The notes below the pieces were generated by a model. It worked only from the letters and a program-made list of their open reading frames with translations, was not told the DNA's origin and searched no databases. Shown here one piece after another: positions 17,251 through 54,000 of a DNA stretch of 64,000 nt. The DNA lies in NCBI GenBank assembly GCA_963971285.1, contig OZ020248.1:15686001-15750000 (forward strand). The letters are read 5' to 3'. The stretch is from Astropecten irregularis. Its lineage: Eukaryota; Echinodermata; Asteroidea; Paxillosida; Astropectinidae. A program made the translations under genes and the position numbers. Each line of letters begins with the position of its first letter. The first letter of the stretch is position 1.

Positions 17251-17634
17251 TGATGTCAATGACAAAAAGGAAAATCAAACACTTTGAATTTGAAAATGTC
17301 TCAGTTTTCTGCTAAAAATTTGGGGGCGCTGCAGCGCCGCATGGGGGGATGATGGGTATAATGGCGGGAGGCTCGGGAAAGGTTGGATACAACGTGCGTT
17401 TGTATTTCTCCAGGATTTGAATTTACAAAACGTGTATAATTAATAACCCCAACTCAAGACAATAAAACCTCATATCTAAGATCCAGGCTATTTTACGCAC
17501 CGTAAAACATTTTCAGCCAATGTTGTACAAACGATTGAGTGGCAATGCATCAATTATTATGTGGATCGGTTTGCGGAAACACCATGTAATAATCGTTCGT
17601 ACTTTTCGCACTTCTATATCGCCGTTCGCAATTA

Positions 17635-17680
17635 GGTCTCAATGTTTCGACTAGTCTGCTCTACTAGTAGTCCTCATCAG
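17635..17680 (-). ncRNA. Hammerhead-ribozyme-like core in a dispersed repeat
   Basis: The minus strand reads CTGATGA, then a stem-loop-like region (GACTA ... TAGTC), then GAAAC followed by ATTGAGACC. These are the two conserved halves of a hammerhead core (CUGANGA and GAAA) in the right order and spacing. Related cores lie at 21909, 51514 and 59371. Hammerheads of this compact kind are known in Penelope-like elements and retrozymes of animals. Activity is not shown. Confidence 0.4.
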
Positions 17681-21600: not shown

Positions 21601-24600
21601 TGATGAAGTTTGAACAAAGAAAGAAAGAATCCATTTTCAAATTGTCTGATTTTTTTTTATTGGCATCAGAAGTTGGAATAGCGCTCCGCACTAATGACGT
21701 CACAAAATCCCCGGATGTCAGACAAACATTGTCTCACACACGTAGTTTGTATGAAATCGGGTGCTATTTTTAGCGCAAGTGCGAAGCGCTATTGGGGGAG
21801 CAATTTTAGCGCTTGCCACATGCGCCTTTTTCCCTAGTTACACTGTGTTTGCGGTAACACCATATGACATGTATACACTTTTGTTAGCATGGGGTGGCTC
21901 TGAAAAGATGTTCTGGCCAGTATGCTCTGGCCATCGTCAGGAGAATACTGCAGGTACCTGTGAGGTAGAAACTGGACTAGTAGTTCTGTTGCATACCTGG
22001 TGCAAACCGCTGATGGATATAATTTTTGTGGTTGAAAAAGTTCAATCCTGGGGCCGCTTTCACTAACACTTTGCGATCATCTCTAAAGCCCAAATCCATC
22101 GCTAAACAGAAAATTGCTGTGCTAAGTAGTTATCAATTTTCCTTTTATGGATGGATTTGGGCTCTAGCGATGATTGCAAAACGTTTAATCAGCCCCTCGT
22201 CCAATCTGAGATGAATGTGAATAGGTCAGAATTTTAAACTTTTTGGGGGGTTTTCCTTTTCCAGACTCCTCATCAGGAACCGGAGCTGCCTCCCAAGGAT
22301 TATGCCTCTTTCCCTGCTTTGGTTGGCCCTCCAAGACAGGGAGATGTTATTGCATACAGAGTAAGTGTGGCAGTTATTGATGCAGTGCTTAAAGGTATAA
22401 TACATGATTGGTAAAGGTCACAGGACAGCAGTCATACTTTGTCTGATCAAACATATACATGCAATGATAAACCTGTGAAAATTTGAGCTTAATCGGACAT
22501 CTGAGTCACGAGAAAATAGTGAAAACCCGACTCAGTTGTTCTTATAAAACATGAAGAATGGTTTTGATCTTATCCCGAGATCAAAACTGGTTTTAGTCTT
22601 TGTTTGACTAATTTCTGGATAAATACAGCATTTCAGGTGGAAATATTTTAACGGTGTGTTTCTAGCATCTTCATACCTTGAGTGAAATGGGATATTAAAC
22701 TAAAACAACTCAAGTGAGGGTGTCCTCTATGTTTGTTCCTATTTCCAAAAATCGTTCAAACGAACAATCTTTGGAAAAGACACTAAATCTTGATTTCCTT
22801 GAAAAACCCAGCATCTGATGAACCAAGATTTACCATGATGACCGTTTGCACTGTTTACAAACTGTTCTTGAGTCCTATTGCTCTTGAGTCCATCCGAATC
22901 TGGAAACTTCTGTAGAAAAGTACTGTGGCTATTTACTCCTTTAAAAAAACTGAAAGAGTTTTGTAGCTGATCCTACATGGATGTTTCTTCTGATATGGGG
23001 TAATATCTCATGAGTGACTGACTACTGCCATGTTTTGTATATTATAGGTCCTTGAGTTGTCAGAGAGCTACTGCCCAGAGCTATCCGCCTACAAGGTGAG
23101 CAGGAGCCAATTTCATAGAGCTGCTTAAGCACCTTGGTAACCGTGGTAAACCTTGGTAAAATAAAATAAGTATGCCAGCCAAAACTCCTTGTGAATGTTA
23201 TGCTTGGCAAACAATACCTAAATACCAGTAAAAAGTGCTCAGTAAACATCACATGAAAATTGGTTGTTATCAGGAAAGGTTTGCGGAGACACGATGTATA
23301 ATCTCTTTATAGATGTGTAGTTCTGAAAAGAGCCGGTGAGAAGTTGATGTTTCTTTTCTGAACCACACTTCTATAAAGAGATTATACATGGTGTCTCCGC
23401 AAACCTTTCCTTATTACGTGGTTGGTAATCCTGTTTGATCATGGAAGACTTTTCATGCTTAAGCAACTTTTGTGTTTTTAAAAGTAGCTCTATGAAATTG
23501 ACCCCAGATCTTTGAATGAAATGGTAGATCAATTTATGCTAACTGCAGCTTTACGTTGAATAACTCTTAACTCAGACCCCTTTTGATAAGATTGCAACCT
23601 CAATTTACATTTGAGTTTAATACATTGTTACATGTACGTCATTCAGTATGATTTGCACACAAAAATTAGGAACCAAGGATGATGTTCGGTATAGCCAAAT
23701 GTTTGGTATAGCCAAATGTTCGGTATAGCCAAATGTTCGGTATAGCCAAATGTTCGGTATAGCCAAATGTTCGGTATAGCCAAATGTTCGGTAAAGCCAA
23801 ATGTTTGGTATAGCCAAATGTTTGGTATAGCCAAATGTTCGGTATAGCCAAATGTTCGGTATAGCCAAATGTTCGGTATAGCCAAATGTTCGGTATAGCC
23901 AAATGTTTGGTATAGCCAAATGTTTGGTATAGCCAAATGTTCGGTATAGCCAAATGTTTGGTATAGCTAAATGTTCGGTATAGCCAAATGTTCGGTATAG
24001 CCAAATGTTCGGTATAGCCAAATGTTTGGTATAGCCAAATGTTTGGTATAGCCAAATGTTCGGTATAGCCAAATGTTCGGTATAGCCAAATGTTTGGTAT
24101 AGCCAAATGTTTGGTATAGCCAAATGTTTGGTATAGCCAAATGTTTGGTATAGCCAAATGTTTGGTATAGCCAAATGTTCGATATAGCCAAATGTTCAGT
24201 AAAGCCAAATGTTTGGTAAAGCCAAATGTTTGGTAAAGCCAAATGTTCGGTATAGCCAAATGTTCGGTATAGCCAAATGTTAGGTATAGCCAAATGTTCG
24301 GTATAGCCAAATGTTCGGTATGGGCGAATGTTCGGTATGGGCGAATGTTCGGTATGGCCAAATGTTTGGTAAAGCCAAATGTTTGGTAAAGCCAAATGTT
24401 TGGTAAAGCCAAATATTTGGTAAAGCCAAATGTTTGGTAAAGCCGTGTCTGGTATAGTGGTCGTTCCATTGTATTTGTTATCAATGCCAGTTTTCTACCC
24501 TTATACTGCCCTGCAGGAGGCCAAAGTGCTGAGTGTGGATGCTTCAACTGGCCACATAGAGGTTGAGCTAGACTCTGTCTGTGTAGCATCTAGGCAGTTT

Positions 24601-27599: not shown

Positions 27600-27780
27600 C
27601 TTGCCCTTCACCGACGTGGATGAGCACTGTATACTCGGTCCTTGTGAGTAAACATGAAAAAATCACGTGCTGGCTCAGGTGGGATTCGAACCCACGTCCT
27701 CCTGCTTATTAGTGCAAATGCCATACCGCTAGGCCACCGAGCTAGCTGGGGTCAGTGGGGTGAATCAAATCCAATATTGC
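27600..27780 (-). mobile_element. tRNA-derived SINE (S2), copy 1
   Basis: The minus strand holds GGTGGCCTAGCGGTATGGC (box A-like) and GGTTCGAATCCCACCTGAG (box B-like). A very similar copy is at 33129-33380. A true tRNA is unlikely because the arms do not close and the same flanks recur. Confidence 0.6.
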
Positions 27781-30439: not shown

Positions 30440-30625
30440 AGCAAGCTTATTAAAAAGTGAACAAAGACAAATTGACTGGAGCGGGACTCGAACCGGCAAC
30501 CTCCCGAATACCGCACAGGCGCTCTACCAACTGAGCTATCCAGCCCTACGTTGGTGGTGACCCCAATAGTCAATTATCTTTGTTCGTTTGGCAGTCAGAA
30601 GCCATGAAACCACGCACACACCGTC
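30440..30625 (-). mobile_element. tRNA-derived SINE (S1), copy 1
   Basis: The minus strand reads GGCTGGATAGCTCAGTTGG (box A) and GGTTCGAGTCCCGCTCCAG (box B). The head TGACTATTGGGGTCACCACC is shared with copies at 39460-39620 and 50119-50290. The tRNA-like part is well kept, so a young copy is possible. Confidence 0.65.
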
Positions 30626-33128: not shown

Positions 33129-33440
33129 TCAGTTAGAATTGATTTATTCATGGAGGAGATATAATAAAGCAAAGAATGTATTGCCCTTCAACCACGTAGA
33201 TAAGCACTTCACTATAAGTGACTTTTGAGCACACATGAAAAAATCATGCGCTGGCTTAGGTGGGATTCGAACCCACGACCTCCTGCTTAATAGTGCAGAT
33301 GACATACCTGCTAGGCCACCAAGCTAGCTGGGGTCAGCAGAGTGAATCAAATCCCTCATCGGCAGGGCACCGTAATTAATCAGTTATAATTGATTCATTC
33401 GTGGAGGAGATAATGCAAACAATTTATTGCCCTGATCTCC
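33129..33440 (-). mobile_element. tRNA-derived SINE (S2), copy 2, with duplicated flank
   Basis: The tRNA-like part at 33247-33330 contains the minus-strand box B-like GGTTCGAATCCCACC. About 60 bases (TCAGTTAGAATTGATTTATT, GGAGGAGATATAATA) before it recur at 33381-33440 (TCAGTTATAATTGATTCATT). This suggests a tandem of about 250-bp monomers or an insertion into its own kind. Confidence 0.55.
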
Positions 33441-48000: not shown

Positions 48001-51000
48001 TCCAACAAGAGAATGAGTGATTTTATGGATTTTGACCACCAACTGAATGACAGTCATCGACATCTGACCAACATCAGGCTGGATATCAGTAGGTAGAACA
48101 CAGGTATAGCATTTGGGAGGTTGCAGGTTTGAATCCTGCTGCAGTCAGTTTCCATTGCCCACTTTGGAATGTAAGAAGTAGACATAGTTTGACGGTGATG
48201 CATATTTATGATATTTTGTGCAGGCTGTTGTGAAGATGGTGCAGGAGGCTTGCACCTACGTGGAGAAGACGCCCGACTTGGAGACCAAACTGAAATTGAT
48301 TGACACATTGAGAACTGTGACTGCTGGAAAGGTAAGTTTCCTGTCCCATTTCCACAGTGAAGAAAAAGAACTGAAACTGAGGAGAAGCTGATGAAGCTCG
48401 TGTCCCAATGTGACCCTCCACCCAGGGAAACCCACTGAAAGTTGCTGAAGCCCATTTGAGATAGGCCCAATTTGACCCTCCACCCAGGGAAACCCACTGA
48501 AAGTTGCTGAAGCCCATTCTGTAGATAGGCCCAATGTGACCCTCCACCCAGGGAAACCCACTGAAAGTTGCTGAAGCCCATTCTGAAGATAGGCCCAATG
48601 TGACCCCACACCCAGGGAAACCCACTGAAAAATACTGAAGCCCATTCTGAAGATAGGCCCAATGTGACCCTCCACCCAGGGAAACCCACTGAAAAATACT
48701 GAAGCCCATTCTGAAGATAGGCCCAATTTGACCCCGCACTCAGGGAAACCCACTGAAAGTTACTGAAGCCCATTCTGAAGATAGCTCCAATGTGACCCTC
48801 CACCCAGGGAAACCCACTGAAAGTTACTGAAGCCTATTCTGAAGATAGCCCCAATATGACCCTCTACACAGGGAAACCCATTGAAAGTTGCTGAAGCCCA
48901 TTCTGAAGATAGGCCCAATGTGACCCTCCACCCAGGGAAACCCACTGAAAGTTGCTGAAGCCCATTCTGAAGATAGGCCCAATATGACCCTCTACACAGG
49001 GAAACCCATTGAAAAATGCTGAAGCCCATTCTGAAGATAGGCCCAATGTGACCCTCCACCCAGGGAAACCCATTGAAAGTTGCTGAAGCCCATTCTGAAG
49101 ATAGCCCCAATATGACCCTCTACACAGGGAAACCCATTGAAAGTTGCTGAAGCCCATTCTGAAGATAGGCCCAATGTGACCCTCCACCCAGGGAAACCCA
49201 CTGAAAGTTGCTGAAGCCCATTCTGAAGATAGGCCCAATGTGACCCTCCACCCAGGGAAACCCACTGAAAAATACTGAAGCCCATTCTGAAGATAGGCCC
49301 AATGTGACCCTCCACCCAGGGAAACCCACTGAAAAATACTGAAGCCCATTCTGAAGATAGGCCCAATTTGACCCCGCACTCAGGGAAACCCACTGAAAGT
49401 TGCTGAAGCCCATTCTGAAGATAGCCCCAATATGACCCTCTACACAGGGAAACCCACTGAAAGTTGCTGAAGCCCATTCTGAAGATAGGCCCAATGTGAC
49501 CCTCCACCCAGGGAAACCCACTGAAAGTTGCTGAAGCCTATTCTGAAGATAGGCCAAATGTGACCCTCCACCCAGGGAAACACACTGAAAGTTGCTGAAG
49601 CCCATTCTGAAGATAGGCCAAATGTGACCCTCCACCCAGGGAAACACACTGAAAGTTGCTGAAGCCTATTCTGAAGATAGGCCAAATGTGACCCTCCACC
49701 CAGGGAAACCCACTGAAAGTTGCTGAAGCCCATTCTGAAGATAGGCCAAATGTGACCCTCCACCCAGGGAAACACACTGAAAGTTGCCCATCTCATTCTG
49801 CCAATGTAACCATCAAACTCCCAACCCTTTCACATGAGCATACTGTACCTTTAGTGTTTAAAAACAACACACTTTTGTAATCAGACTGAATTTACATGTA
49901 TGCTCCCCTTTGCTTTGGAATATTTGTCAGATTTACGTGGAGATTGAGCGTGCCCGTCTCACCATGACTCTGTCTAAGATCAAAGAAGGCCAGGGTGAAG
50001 TGGCGGAGGCAGCTTCCATTCTCCAGGAACTGCAGGTCAGTACATCATTCTATTATTTGATTGTGAATATGATTTTCAGAGGGCCTTTTACAAACGGAGG
50101 TTCAGGCTCCATATAATGTGCGTGGTTTCATGGCATCTGACTGTCAAAAGAACAAAGATATTTGACTATTGGGGTCACCACCAACATAGGGCTGGATGGC
50201 TCAGTTGGTAGAGCGCCTGTACAGTATTCAGGAGGTCGCCGGTTCAAATCCCGCTCCTGTCAATTTTTCTTGTTCACTTTTCAATGGATTGAAAATAAGT
50301 TAGTCCACCTATGGCAGACTGACCTCAGTTGCACTGTTTTAGAAGATAATAACCATCCTCATTGGATCTGCTTCAGGTGGAGACGTTTGGCTCCATGGAG
50401 CGAAAAGAGAAGGTGGACTTCATTCTGGAGCAGATGCGTCTGTGTCTGACCACCAAGGACGTCATCAGAACCCAGATCATCAGCAAGAAAATCAACCCTA
50501 AGTTCTTTGAGTCTAGCGAGACTAGCGTTCAGGTATGTGACGGTAATATTCGCGGCTTAATGCAATATTATCATCATTGAATTCACAGCTTATGACAACA
50601 TTCTTCCCATTTCTTTCTCAGCTGTGACAATATTTTCCCCATTTCATTTTCAGCTTATGACAATATTCTCATCATTGAATTCACAGCTTATAATATTCTC
50701 CCCATTTCATTCTCAGCTGTGACAATATTTTCCCCATTTCATTTTCAGCTTATGACAATATTCTCATCATTGAATTCACAGCTTATAATATTCTCCCCAT
50801 TTCATTCCCAGCTGTGACAATATTTTCCCCATTGCATTCTCAGCTGTGACAATATTCTCACCATTGCATTCTCAGCTTGTGACAACATTCTCCCCATTTC
50901 ATTCTCAGCTGTGACAATATTCTCCCCATTTCATTCTCAGCTGTGACAATATTCTCACCATTGCATTCTCAGCTGTGACAATATTCTCACCATTGCATTC

Positions 51001-54000
51001 TCAGCTGTGACAATATTCTCACCATTGCATTCTCAGCTGTGACAATGTTTTCACCATTGCATTCTCAGCTTGTGACGATATTCTCCCCATTGCATTCTAA
51101 AGGCACCCCATCTCTTTCTAACTAATTCGCACTTCCAACTAAATCCTGTTTGATTCACAGGAGCAGAAGCTGAAATTCTACTACTTGATGATCGAAGTCG
51201 ATCAGCATGAGGTGGCCTACCTGGACATCTGCAGACACTACAGAGCCTTGTATGACACCACAATCATCAAAGAGGACCCAACCAAGTGGAAAGAGGTACC
51301 TTACCACCAAAACCATACAGCAATATATCTCCTGTATCTCCAATCAGCCAGTTGCCCTAAAACTTCAGTCCTTCCTCTAGAAAAATGAACGCTGAGTCAC
51401 TCATAGTAACCGGTGTATTGAAGAATGAAAATATAAAAATTGTCGGTGAAGAAGATAAAACATAATATGGATGTGTGGTTCTGAAAAGAACCGGTGAAAG
51501 GTTTGGTCTTGATGTTCCAGCCAGTGTACTCTGGCTGTCTTCAGGAGAGTGTGTGATTAGATAAAACTTAGCAATCATCATGATAGGTTTCAATAACAGC
51601 TTCACATTGGGCATAAATTTGACTCTGGTCCATTGTGCGTGTTTCAGATTTTTTTGATTTTTTAGTGCAATTTAGGGTGAGCCACTTTTGGAAACTTCAG
51701 TTTTTAGGTACTATTTCTTTTTTCACTGACTCAACAATTTGTTGAGAACCGAGAGTGGTATGATTGGCGATAAAAATGTCAGAGTTGGGAACCTGGGTGC
51801 TTTATTGGCATTCATTGTGACACATTGCCTGCATGAAACTCAAACATTCTTTATAGAATCAGGATAATCAATTTCAATTGTTGGTTAATCAATTGAATTG
51901 TTTTTGTATCGTTACTCAGATCCTTAAACATGTGATCTTGTATTTGGTCCTGGCTCCGTTTGATAACGAGCAGTCTGACCTCATCCACCGAGTTGCGGCC
52001 GACAAGCATCTTGAAGAAATACCCAAATACAGGTAAGAAGATTGTCACTCACAGTTGCTGAGCGACTGTACATTCTGTGGCAAAGTTTAGCCAGCAAGAC
52101 CTGACGTAAAGTTTTCATTTTCTGAGCTTTAGGTCCTTTGAAAAACCTGCTTTCCCTGTTGTGGATTTTGGTGGATTTAGGATGGTGAGGCTCAATTTTG
52201 GAAAATTCTCTAAATATTTTTTGTATAGAGATCTGTTGAAGTGCTTCACCACTCAAGAGCTGATGCGATGGCAGCAGGTGTGTGCCATATATGAGCAGGA
52301 GCTCAGGCACGGGTCGGCCGACAGCAAACCCACGGACGTCTTCAGCGACAACGAGCAGGGCAAGCAGCGATGGAACGACCTCAGAAACAGGGTGGTGGAA
52401 CACGTGAGTTTTTGAATTCAAAACGTTGAAGCTTTAAGGAGAGAAAATTCTTTTCGCATTTACTTTCACGTGAAGTGCGCACCAAGCTTATGTGGCTTAA
52501 TTAAGTATTTTGTACTTGCCTCACACTTGTCAACTGTATGTTATGTTTTGTTTGTCCCTTGTCCTTTGCGTCTGCGTGTTTGTTTGTTTGTTTTCATTGC
52601 TTCCTTGTTGTCTGTCTATAGGTTAGGGTACAAAAGCTGTTGCTTATCCTGATACATATTGTTGGCATTATTTCTTATCGATGTTATGTACATAATGATA
52701 AATGGTACATTAATGATATTTACAGTTATCACTAACAAATGTACGCTCTTTTTTTTTTCACTGCACAAATATTGACACCATTTGACACCATGTCCTCTTG
52801 AATTGAATTGAATTTTTGAAGTCTAGTTGGTCTTTTCCCAATAGCAAGTCTTACCAGCTTTAATAGTGTGTCTTGTCTGGTGTTTGCACGCTTGGCCTCA
52901 ATTGAGCCATGGTGTCATTTTAGGACAAATAGTTAGCACTTGTATCTGATCAAATTATATGTTTGCTTTGCAGAACATTCGGGTGATGGCGAAATACTAC
53001 GTCCGCATTACACTGTCAAGAATGGCCGAGCTCTTAGAACTGGACGAAAGTGTAAGTACAAACAAAACAATCTTAGTGCAGTATATGTGGCTTAGGCACT
53101 GAAGTAGTCAAGTACAGTACATCATTTTGTTCATGTTAATAAGTTTGGGCAGGGGTTGAACATTGTCCACGTAGCATCAGCAGACTTACACCATTCTATT
53201 ATGGGTCATTCCACCAGGTTGGGGCAGGATTTATAGGGTGTCCATGTAGCATCAGCAGACTTGTACCATTCTTATTATGGGTCATTCCACCAGGTTGGGG
53301 CAGGATTTGTATGGTGTCCATGTAGCATCAGCAGACTTGTACCATTCTATGATGGGTCATTCCACCAGGTTGGGGCAGGATTTGTATGGTGTCCATGTAG
53401 CATCAGCAGACTTGTACCATTCTATTATGGGTCATTCCACCAGGTTGGGGCAGGATTTGTACAATGTCCATGCAGCATCAGCAGACTTGTACCATTCTAT
53501 TATGGGTCATCCCACCAGGTTGGGGCAGGATTTGTATGATGTCCATGTAGCATCAGCAGACTTGTACCATTCTATTATGGGTCATCCCACCAGGTTGGGG
53601 CAGGATTTGTATGATGTCCATGTAGCATCAGCAGACTTGTACCATTCTATTATGGGTCATTCCATCAGGTTGGGGCAGGATTTGTATGATGTCCATGTAG
53701 CATCAGCAGACTTGTACCATTCTATTATGGGTCATCCCACCAGGTTGGGGCAGGATTTGTACGGTGTCCATGTAGCATCAGCAGACTTGTACCATTCTAT
53801 TATGGGTCATTCCACCAGGTTGGGGCAGGATTTGTATGATGTCCATGTAGCATCAGCAGACTTGTACCATTCTATTATGGGTCATCCCACCAGGTTGGGG
53901 CAGGATTTGTACGGTGTCCATGTAGCATCAGCAGACTTGTACCATTCTATTATGGATCATTCCACCAGGTTAGGGCAGGATTTGTATGATGTCCATGTAG

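Follow-up and report, generated by a model that had tools for sequence, protein, structure and literature searches.

Hammerhead-like hairpins and a histone-type stem-loop in the terminal repeats of a Penelope-like element of Astropecten irregularis

Hairpins of the window and their surroundings

The stretch analysed here, referred to as the window, comprises 64,000 nt of the Astropecten irregularis genome (C11:15686001-15750000), and searches were extended to 475.7 Mb of genome sequence. Two hairpins on its minus strand had been described, in a sequence-only reading, as hammerhead-ribozyme-like cores with perfect 7-bp stems that differ by two base pairs, each changed on both sides. When the sequences were read again, CTGAAGA-CAGCCAG-AGTACA-CTGGCTG-GAAC was found at 51544-51514 and CTGACGA-TGGCCAG-AGCATA-CTGGCCA-GAAC at 21940-21910, and the position, pairing and paired changes were all confirmed. 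The first hairpin lies in a copy of the terminal repeat (pLTR) of a Penelope-like element (PLE) of family B, located at 51466-51555 on the minus strand, with its 5′ break 11 nt before CTGA and its likeness to other B copies stopping near 51466. This copy includes the hammerhead-like unit with a degenerate core (51511-51544, minus strand), which ends in CTGGCTGGAACATC, followed by an intact histone-type 3′ stem-loop, GGTTCTTTTCAGAACC (51477-51492, minus strand), which scores 30.8 bits with the Rfam Histone3 model, under the gathering score of 34. The purine element that follows this stem-loop elsewhere has been lost here. The second hairpin belongs to a pLTR copy of family A (21850-22016, minus strand), the limits of which were set by the query used and may extend further. 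Its hammerhead-like unit (21907-21940, minus strand) is accompanied by a stem-loop remnant (21896-21911, minus strand) whose 5′ arm is gone while the 3′ part, TTTTCAGAGCC, is retained, and by a box, ATATGGTGTTACCGCAAAC (21847-21865, minus strand), similar versions of which occur in all three families, A, B and C.

Two further remnants were recognised. A head-to-head pair of family B at 23279-23415 carries degenerate stem-loops at 23319-23334 (minus strand) and 23349-23364 (plus strand), each followed by an intact AAAGAGATTA (23299-23308, minus strand; 23375-23384, plus strand) and then by the box, so that both purine elements are retained in this pair, unlike in the degraded main copies of the window. 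A copy of family C (17569-17680, minus strand) has CTGATGA, a stem II with an insertion, a GAAACATT core and the box at 17569-17587; this copy is without a histone-type stem-loop. The flank TTTGCGG..ACACCATGTATAA, which the sequence-only reading had proposed as a marker of the repeat, corresponds to the reverse complement of the family B box, TTATACATGGTGTCTCCGCAAAC, downstream of the unit, but a search of the window for it as an ungapped 20-mer, allowing three mismatches, found nothing. The motif CTGANGA by itself is uninformative: it occurs 56 times in the window against 30.3 expected, and most of the excess is due to a 64-bp tandem array at 48404-49787 (plus strand; 21.7 copies, 93% match), which holds 19 of the 56 as CTGAAGA in register. 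Other repeats are also present. A long inverted repeat (about 22068-22172) adjoins the A copy, gives weak miRNA-precursor scores and is possibly a foldback element. Furthermore, tRNA-like repeats at 27671-27743, 30473-30545, 33252-33325 and 50190-50262, with similar stretches at three loci elsewhere (L004, L020, L063), suggest a tRNA-derived SINE.

Repeat families, stem changes and hammerhead character

The whole hairpin unit is far above chance in the genome, the 34-nt core giving 1,380 matches with at most three mismatches and the reversed-pattern control giving 0. Family A, of which 28 units were aligned, includes the copy at 21909; family B, with 38 aligned units, includes that at 51514. 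In both families the majority sequence is CTGA(A/G)GA-CGGCCAG-AG.A.A-CTGGCCG-GAACGTCGAG, in which the outer two pairs of stem II are a CpG facing a CpG. The stem ends of the two window copies, CA/TG at 51514 and TG/CA at 21909, each correspond to two CpG transitions. Copies with 5′ TG (n = 57) have CG on the 3′ side in 36 cases, CA in 11, TG in nine and TA in one, while those with 5′ CA (n = 51) have CG in 30, TG in 13, CA in seven and TA in one. The 40 double CpG mutants thus divide into 24 compensated and 16 uncompensated copies (Fisher odds ratio 2.27, p = 0.34), or 22 and 16 when the two window copies are removed. Among the first 100 core matches listed, all with zero mismatches, two double mutants are compensated and seven are not; among 70 units from fetched loci, a non-random sample chosen by likeness to the window copies, the counts are five and one. 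The paired changes had been taken as a sign of selection on RNA structure. Since the double CpG mutants do not differ from independence, the two chosen copies are uninformative on selection, and CpG decay suffices to explain them; compensation as evidence of selection was therefore rejected. A modest lean towards compensation may be present at the level of these 40 copies.

The hammerhead-like layout itself was rightly recognised, and it can be observed in family C, which gives 4,540 matches with at most three mismatches (control 0) and combines CTGATGA, stem II and GAAACGTT. One example (L006) reads GGTCTC-CTGATGA-N-GACTAG-AGCAGG-CTAGTC-(G/A)AAACGTT-GAGACC, with a stem I of six pairs, shorter in some other C copies. 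GAAAC (A after G) is found in 97 of the 100 zero-mismatch C matches listed out of the 4,540. Stem II reads GGCCAG:CTGGCC in A and B and GACTAG:CTAGTC in C, and because these forms differ by two pairs changed on both sides, the stem II structure appears to have been kept between families. Ribozyme activity of C is not assured, since an additional base separates CUGANGA from stem II. C units with canonical cores lie in tandem, 163 bp apart, at G000:C1:3251206-3251891, as in retrozyme arrays.

Minimal hammerheads of PLEs were reportedly first described in a 2014 study. Regarding families A and B, the units depart from the type I plan (CUGANGA, stem II, GAAA core, stem I over the cleavage site): among 75 units of the fetched loci, detected by a search that left the core letters free, 48 have GGAAC and three have GAAAC. 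A change of GAAAC to GGAAC is expected to impair hammerhead catalysis. All five units of the four loci that bear an open reading frame (ORF) have a GGAAC core, so this core does not merely reflect the decay of old copies. The earlier expectation that the two window copies probably cannot cleave seems sound as a prediction from sequence, and the anticipated abundance of GAAA copies with covarying stems holds for family C but not for A and B.

Families A, B and C have the box in common, and also the 3′ end where C copies reach it (L011, L030). Within the fetched loci none of the eight C-type units has a stem-loop of its own. The scan gave ten rows, three of them with a stem-loop nearby; two of these, L031 and L034, proved to be A units and were left out, and at L040 the stem-loop is part of a B copy inserted next to the C unit. 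Most simply, the A/B lineage acquired the module of stem-loop and purine element, or C lost it, and it is the module-bearing lineage in which the core changed. Across three families, this association of stem-loop with core change amounts to a correlation over one or two events.

The histone-type 3′ signal and its place in the element

Directly downstream of the A and B units lie a histone-type stem-loop and a purine-rich element, which the sequence-only reading did not mention. The stem-loop is GGCTCTTTTCAGAGCC in A and GGTTCTTTTCAGAACC in B, followed by an AC-rich tail and then by AAAGAGAT; across this region family A reads GGCTCTTTTCAGAGCC-ACCCCATACTCAC-AAAAGAGAT. Four host histone gene ends were read, three of H4 and one beside H3, with the plan GGCTCT(T/A)TTCAGAGCC-ACCAC..-AAAGAG. 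The H4 end at L081 is GGCTCTTTTCAGAGCC-ACCACATTTTC-AAAAAAGAGAT; those at L080 and L082 are alike, apart from one changed loop base in L080, and the H3 end at L081 follows the same plan. Host H4 genes give 66 matches, mostly in a tandem array on C18 with repeats of roughly 4.7 kb. With the Rfam Histone3 model, six of 11 PLE loci reach the gathering score (eight hits, 34.5-39.5 bits), as do all three histone loci (four hits, 36.4-41.3 bits), the five PLE loci below it being L011, L051, L062, L067 and L084; a stem-loop-like site at L038 was not counted as PLE. The stem-loop, allowing up to three changes, is present in 65 of 73 A/B units, and in 54 of these 65 it is followed, no more than 32 nt on, by AAAGAG or by AAAGAGAT with one change or none. 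The purine element lies 14 nt after the stem in 19 of the 54, as at the H4 ends, and 10-11 nt after it in 28. At stem pair 3 (n = 65), C-G is found in 23 copies, T-A in 37, T-G in three and a mispair in two. Both the Histone3-family stem-loop and the host-like purine element thus occur at the A/B PLE loci.

A possible partner for the purine element was sought through the Rfam U7 model. No match reaches the gathering level in the genome, and the best candidate, C23:12825010-12825067, scores 27.4 bits against a gathering score of 34 (E 0.13); it reads UUUUAAUCUCUUUUAAAUUUCUCAAG, followed by a foldable hairpin. This score alone proves nothing, since the same search gives sub-threshold matches (E up to 10) in 12 of 14 prokaryotic control genomes. 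Pairing of the candidate's 5′ end amounts to -9.8, -9.4 and -8.2 kcal/mol with host histone ends, -9.5 with A, -10.3 with B and -4.5 with the C control, and out of 500 shuffles one, one and five pair as well for the host histones, one for A, one for B and 333 for the C control. The window copies themselves are degraded in this respect (A, -1.8 kcal/mol; B, +0.5 kcal/mol). The Rfam U7 model favours CUCUUUU, and the pairing is partly circular because the model partly selects the candidate's 5′ end. The likeness of the PLE purine element to the host histone ends does not depend on the U7 candidate.

A 781-base stretch taken from the region upstream of a B unit (L049) matches at 43 places in the genome. 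At all four ORF-bearing loci fetched (L083-L086), the unit lies 199-205 nt past the open frame. L084 has an open frame of 717 aa with an RVT_1 match (5.7e-10), its sister copy L085 has a GIY-YIG domain (6.4e-6), and YVDDTF and, in the GIY-YIG region, GVYRIPCECGKVYIGETGRN are readable in the ORF-bearing loci. The earlier guess of a Penelope-like element is thereby borne out: family B has the single ORF with reverse transcriptase and GIY-YIG that characterises PLEs, so that by its predicted protein it is a PLE, while A is linked by shared pLTR sequence alone, having unit, stem-loop, box and 3′ end in common with B; an ORF of family A was not found. The units arranged head-to-head, together with a partial left copy in inverted orientation, agree with PLE terminal repeats, which are often partly inverted at the left. 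The B pLTR runs from the ORF stop through about 200 nt with a TATA box to the hammerhead-like unit with its degenerate GGAAC core, then to the histone-type stem-loop, the host-histone-like purine element, the conserved box and the element end. This order, the match to host histone ends and the place after the PLE ORF can be read directly from the copies.

The point at which B copies break also carries information. Seventeen of 40 B units lose similarity 7-11 nt before CTGA, that is, 28-32 nt after the TATAA of longer copies, and several of these breaks are head-to-head junctions. The remainder comprise 12 that continue through the TATA box (two of them, at L049, scored short owing to a 2-nt gap), five that stop between and six that stop within 5 nt. 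Because of the breaks 28-32 nt after TATAA, this distribution suggests a transcription start about 10 nt before the hammerhead unit. A U5 snRNA match (90.6 bits) was also observed at L084:1666-1785 (plus strand), about 360 nt ahead of this coding copy's open frame. Searches elsewhere were less productive. No PLE coding sequence was recognised in the upstream stretches of L075 and L076, and neither a Pfam search of two L049 fragments nor a PDB search was informative. The 60 GIY-YIG matches of the genome were considered as partners of A/B and rejected, flanks at five (L069, L070, L072-L074) having no A/B unit or stem-loop. The best of these matches was ruled out by its position on L071 (G000:C94), a 24-kb contig with bacterial-looking coding and a 954-aa open frame that has a GIY-YIG start and looks uvrC-like by eye; it is likely a contaminant or symbiont contig. 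A different GIY-YIG PLE, with two GIY-YIG matches in tandem, 3.27 kb apart, is represented at L069 (G000:C17:11034200-11035300), where its own motif, TTTGAGAAAGATCCTGCTAGGATCGAAACGCGTC, at about 432-465, is a possible diverged hammerhead.

Proposed RNA-end formation and comparison with known systems

Judging from these arrangements, it is probable that the window hairpins are decayed pLTR copies of a PLE lineage that uses host histone-type 3′ processing, either together with the ribozyme or in its place. The accessible parts of PMC5706932 and PMC5881035 describe SLBP, U7 and CPSF73 as factors of histone mRNA ends. A PLE transcript would start about 10 nt before a hammerhead unit and, on running past the ORF into the pLTR, would be cut a few nucleotides after the stem-loop by SLBP, the U7 snRNP and CPSF73. 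The product would be a non-polyadenylated PLE mRNA, probably linked to S phase. Self-cleavage by the A/B core would have been lost or weakened as histone-type processing joined or replaced the ribozyme, while the sister family C, without the stem-loop, keeps a canonical core. The stronger form, that the lineage captured or evolved an SLBP stem-loop and U7 site as a substitute for its hammerhead and so coupled its mRNA to the replication phase, is put forward tentatively, as a proposal that could well fail. Should a pLTR also lie 5′ of the ORF, its copy of the signal would lead to premature cutting of the transcript; LTR elements have the same 5′-copy problem with poly(A) signals.

Other explanations were weighed against this one. 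That the element is a conventional PLE with a functional minimal hammerhead, and that its downstream stem-loop is unrelated (for example, a hairpin for reverse-transcriptase binding or priming) and histone-like by mere resemblance, is unlikely. This view draws on the Anolis PLE, in which reverse transcription begins in an AC-rich stem-loop and the hammerhead cleaves only with the element's protein (PMC11167929), and on the presence of the hammerhead unit in all four coding loci. Nevertheless, the coding copies have GGAAC rather than GAAAC, and resemblance would have to extend jointly to the stem, the loop, the ACC-type tail, the purine element and the spacing in A. The very closeness of family A to the host H4 ends across these parts could instead point to a functionless relic of a histone 3′ end, captured once in the A/B ancestor and spread passively by copying. 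We regard such a relic as rather improbable: the spacers of A and B differ, yet a fully paired stem, with its both-sided change at pair 3, and AAAGAGAT have been kept, in coding copies too.

The notion that the hairpins are chance or generic palindromes of no hammerhead origin is scarcely credible. It has in its favour the silence of the Rfam hammerhead models, which give no score in the window, none in two 501-base stretches around the copies even at E up to 10 and, for Hammerhead_1, no match in the genome; the latter model is equally silent in its 14 controls. It is already contradicted by family C, which has the box and element end in common with A/B, numbers thousands of matches with the CTGATGA, stem II and GAAACGTT layout, forms a stem I that reaches six pairs and covaries with A/B in stem II.

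Histone-type processing of a PLE bears on the question of how the RNA ends of PLEs arise and which purpose their hammerheads serve, and a degenerate-core PLE with a host-matched histone signal beside a canonical-core sister without it makes this question testable. In the Anolis element, the ribozyme was dispensable for insertion in vitro (PMC11167929). The SLBP and U7 machinery is widely held to serve histone genes almost exclusively. If the proposal is true, a mobile element would depend on SLBP and U7, and its sites in this genome could outnumber those of the histone genes. The titles and opening lines of abstracts searched, which missed most subscription journals, contained no description of a retroelement that carries a histone stem-loop or a U7 site, nor do the accessible parts of PMC5706932 and PMC5881035 mention one; a PLE with a histone-type 3′ signal is likely, though not certainly, new.

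Three known systems come closest to these elements. According to the accessible parts of PMC6155905 and PMC7229834, and also PMC11167929, PLEs carry minimal type I hammerheads that lack helix III. The present families resemble them in the PLE terminal repeat, the order CUGANGA, stem II and G(A)AAC, the lack of a real helix III and the many copies. As far as those descriptions go, A and B differ in having mostly GGAAC, with A13 replaced or the register shifted so that a seventh pair is added to stem II, and in bearing the histone-type signal directly downstream, while C differs by the additional base that separates CUGANGA from stem II. The animal non-LTR retrozymes, as described in the same parts of PMC7229834, likewise consist of type I hammerhead repeats, some in tandem as in C (163 bp apart), whereas the A and B copies observed stand alone or head-to-head, and family B includes coding PLEs. 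With the 3′ end of the host replication-dependent H4 histone genes, finally, the elements share the stem-loop sequence, the ACC-type tail, AAAGAGAT, the spacing in A and the predicted complementarity to the same sub-threshold U7 candidate; the difference is that this signal stands in a retrotransposon terminal repeat after a PLE ORF and not after a histone gene.
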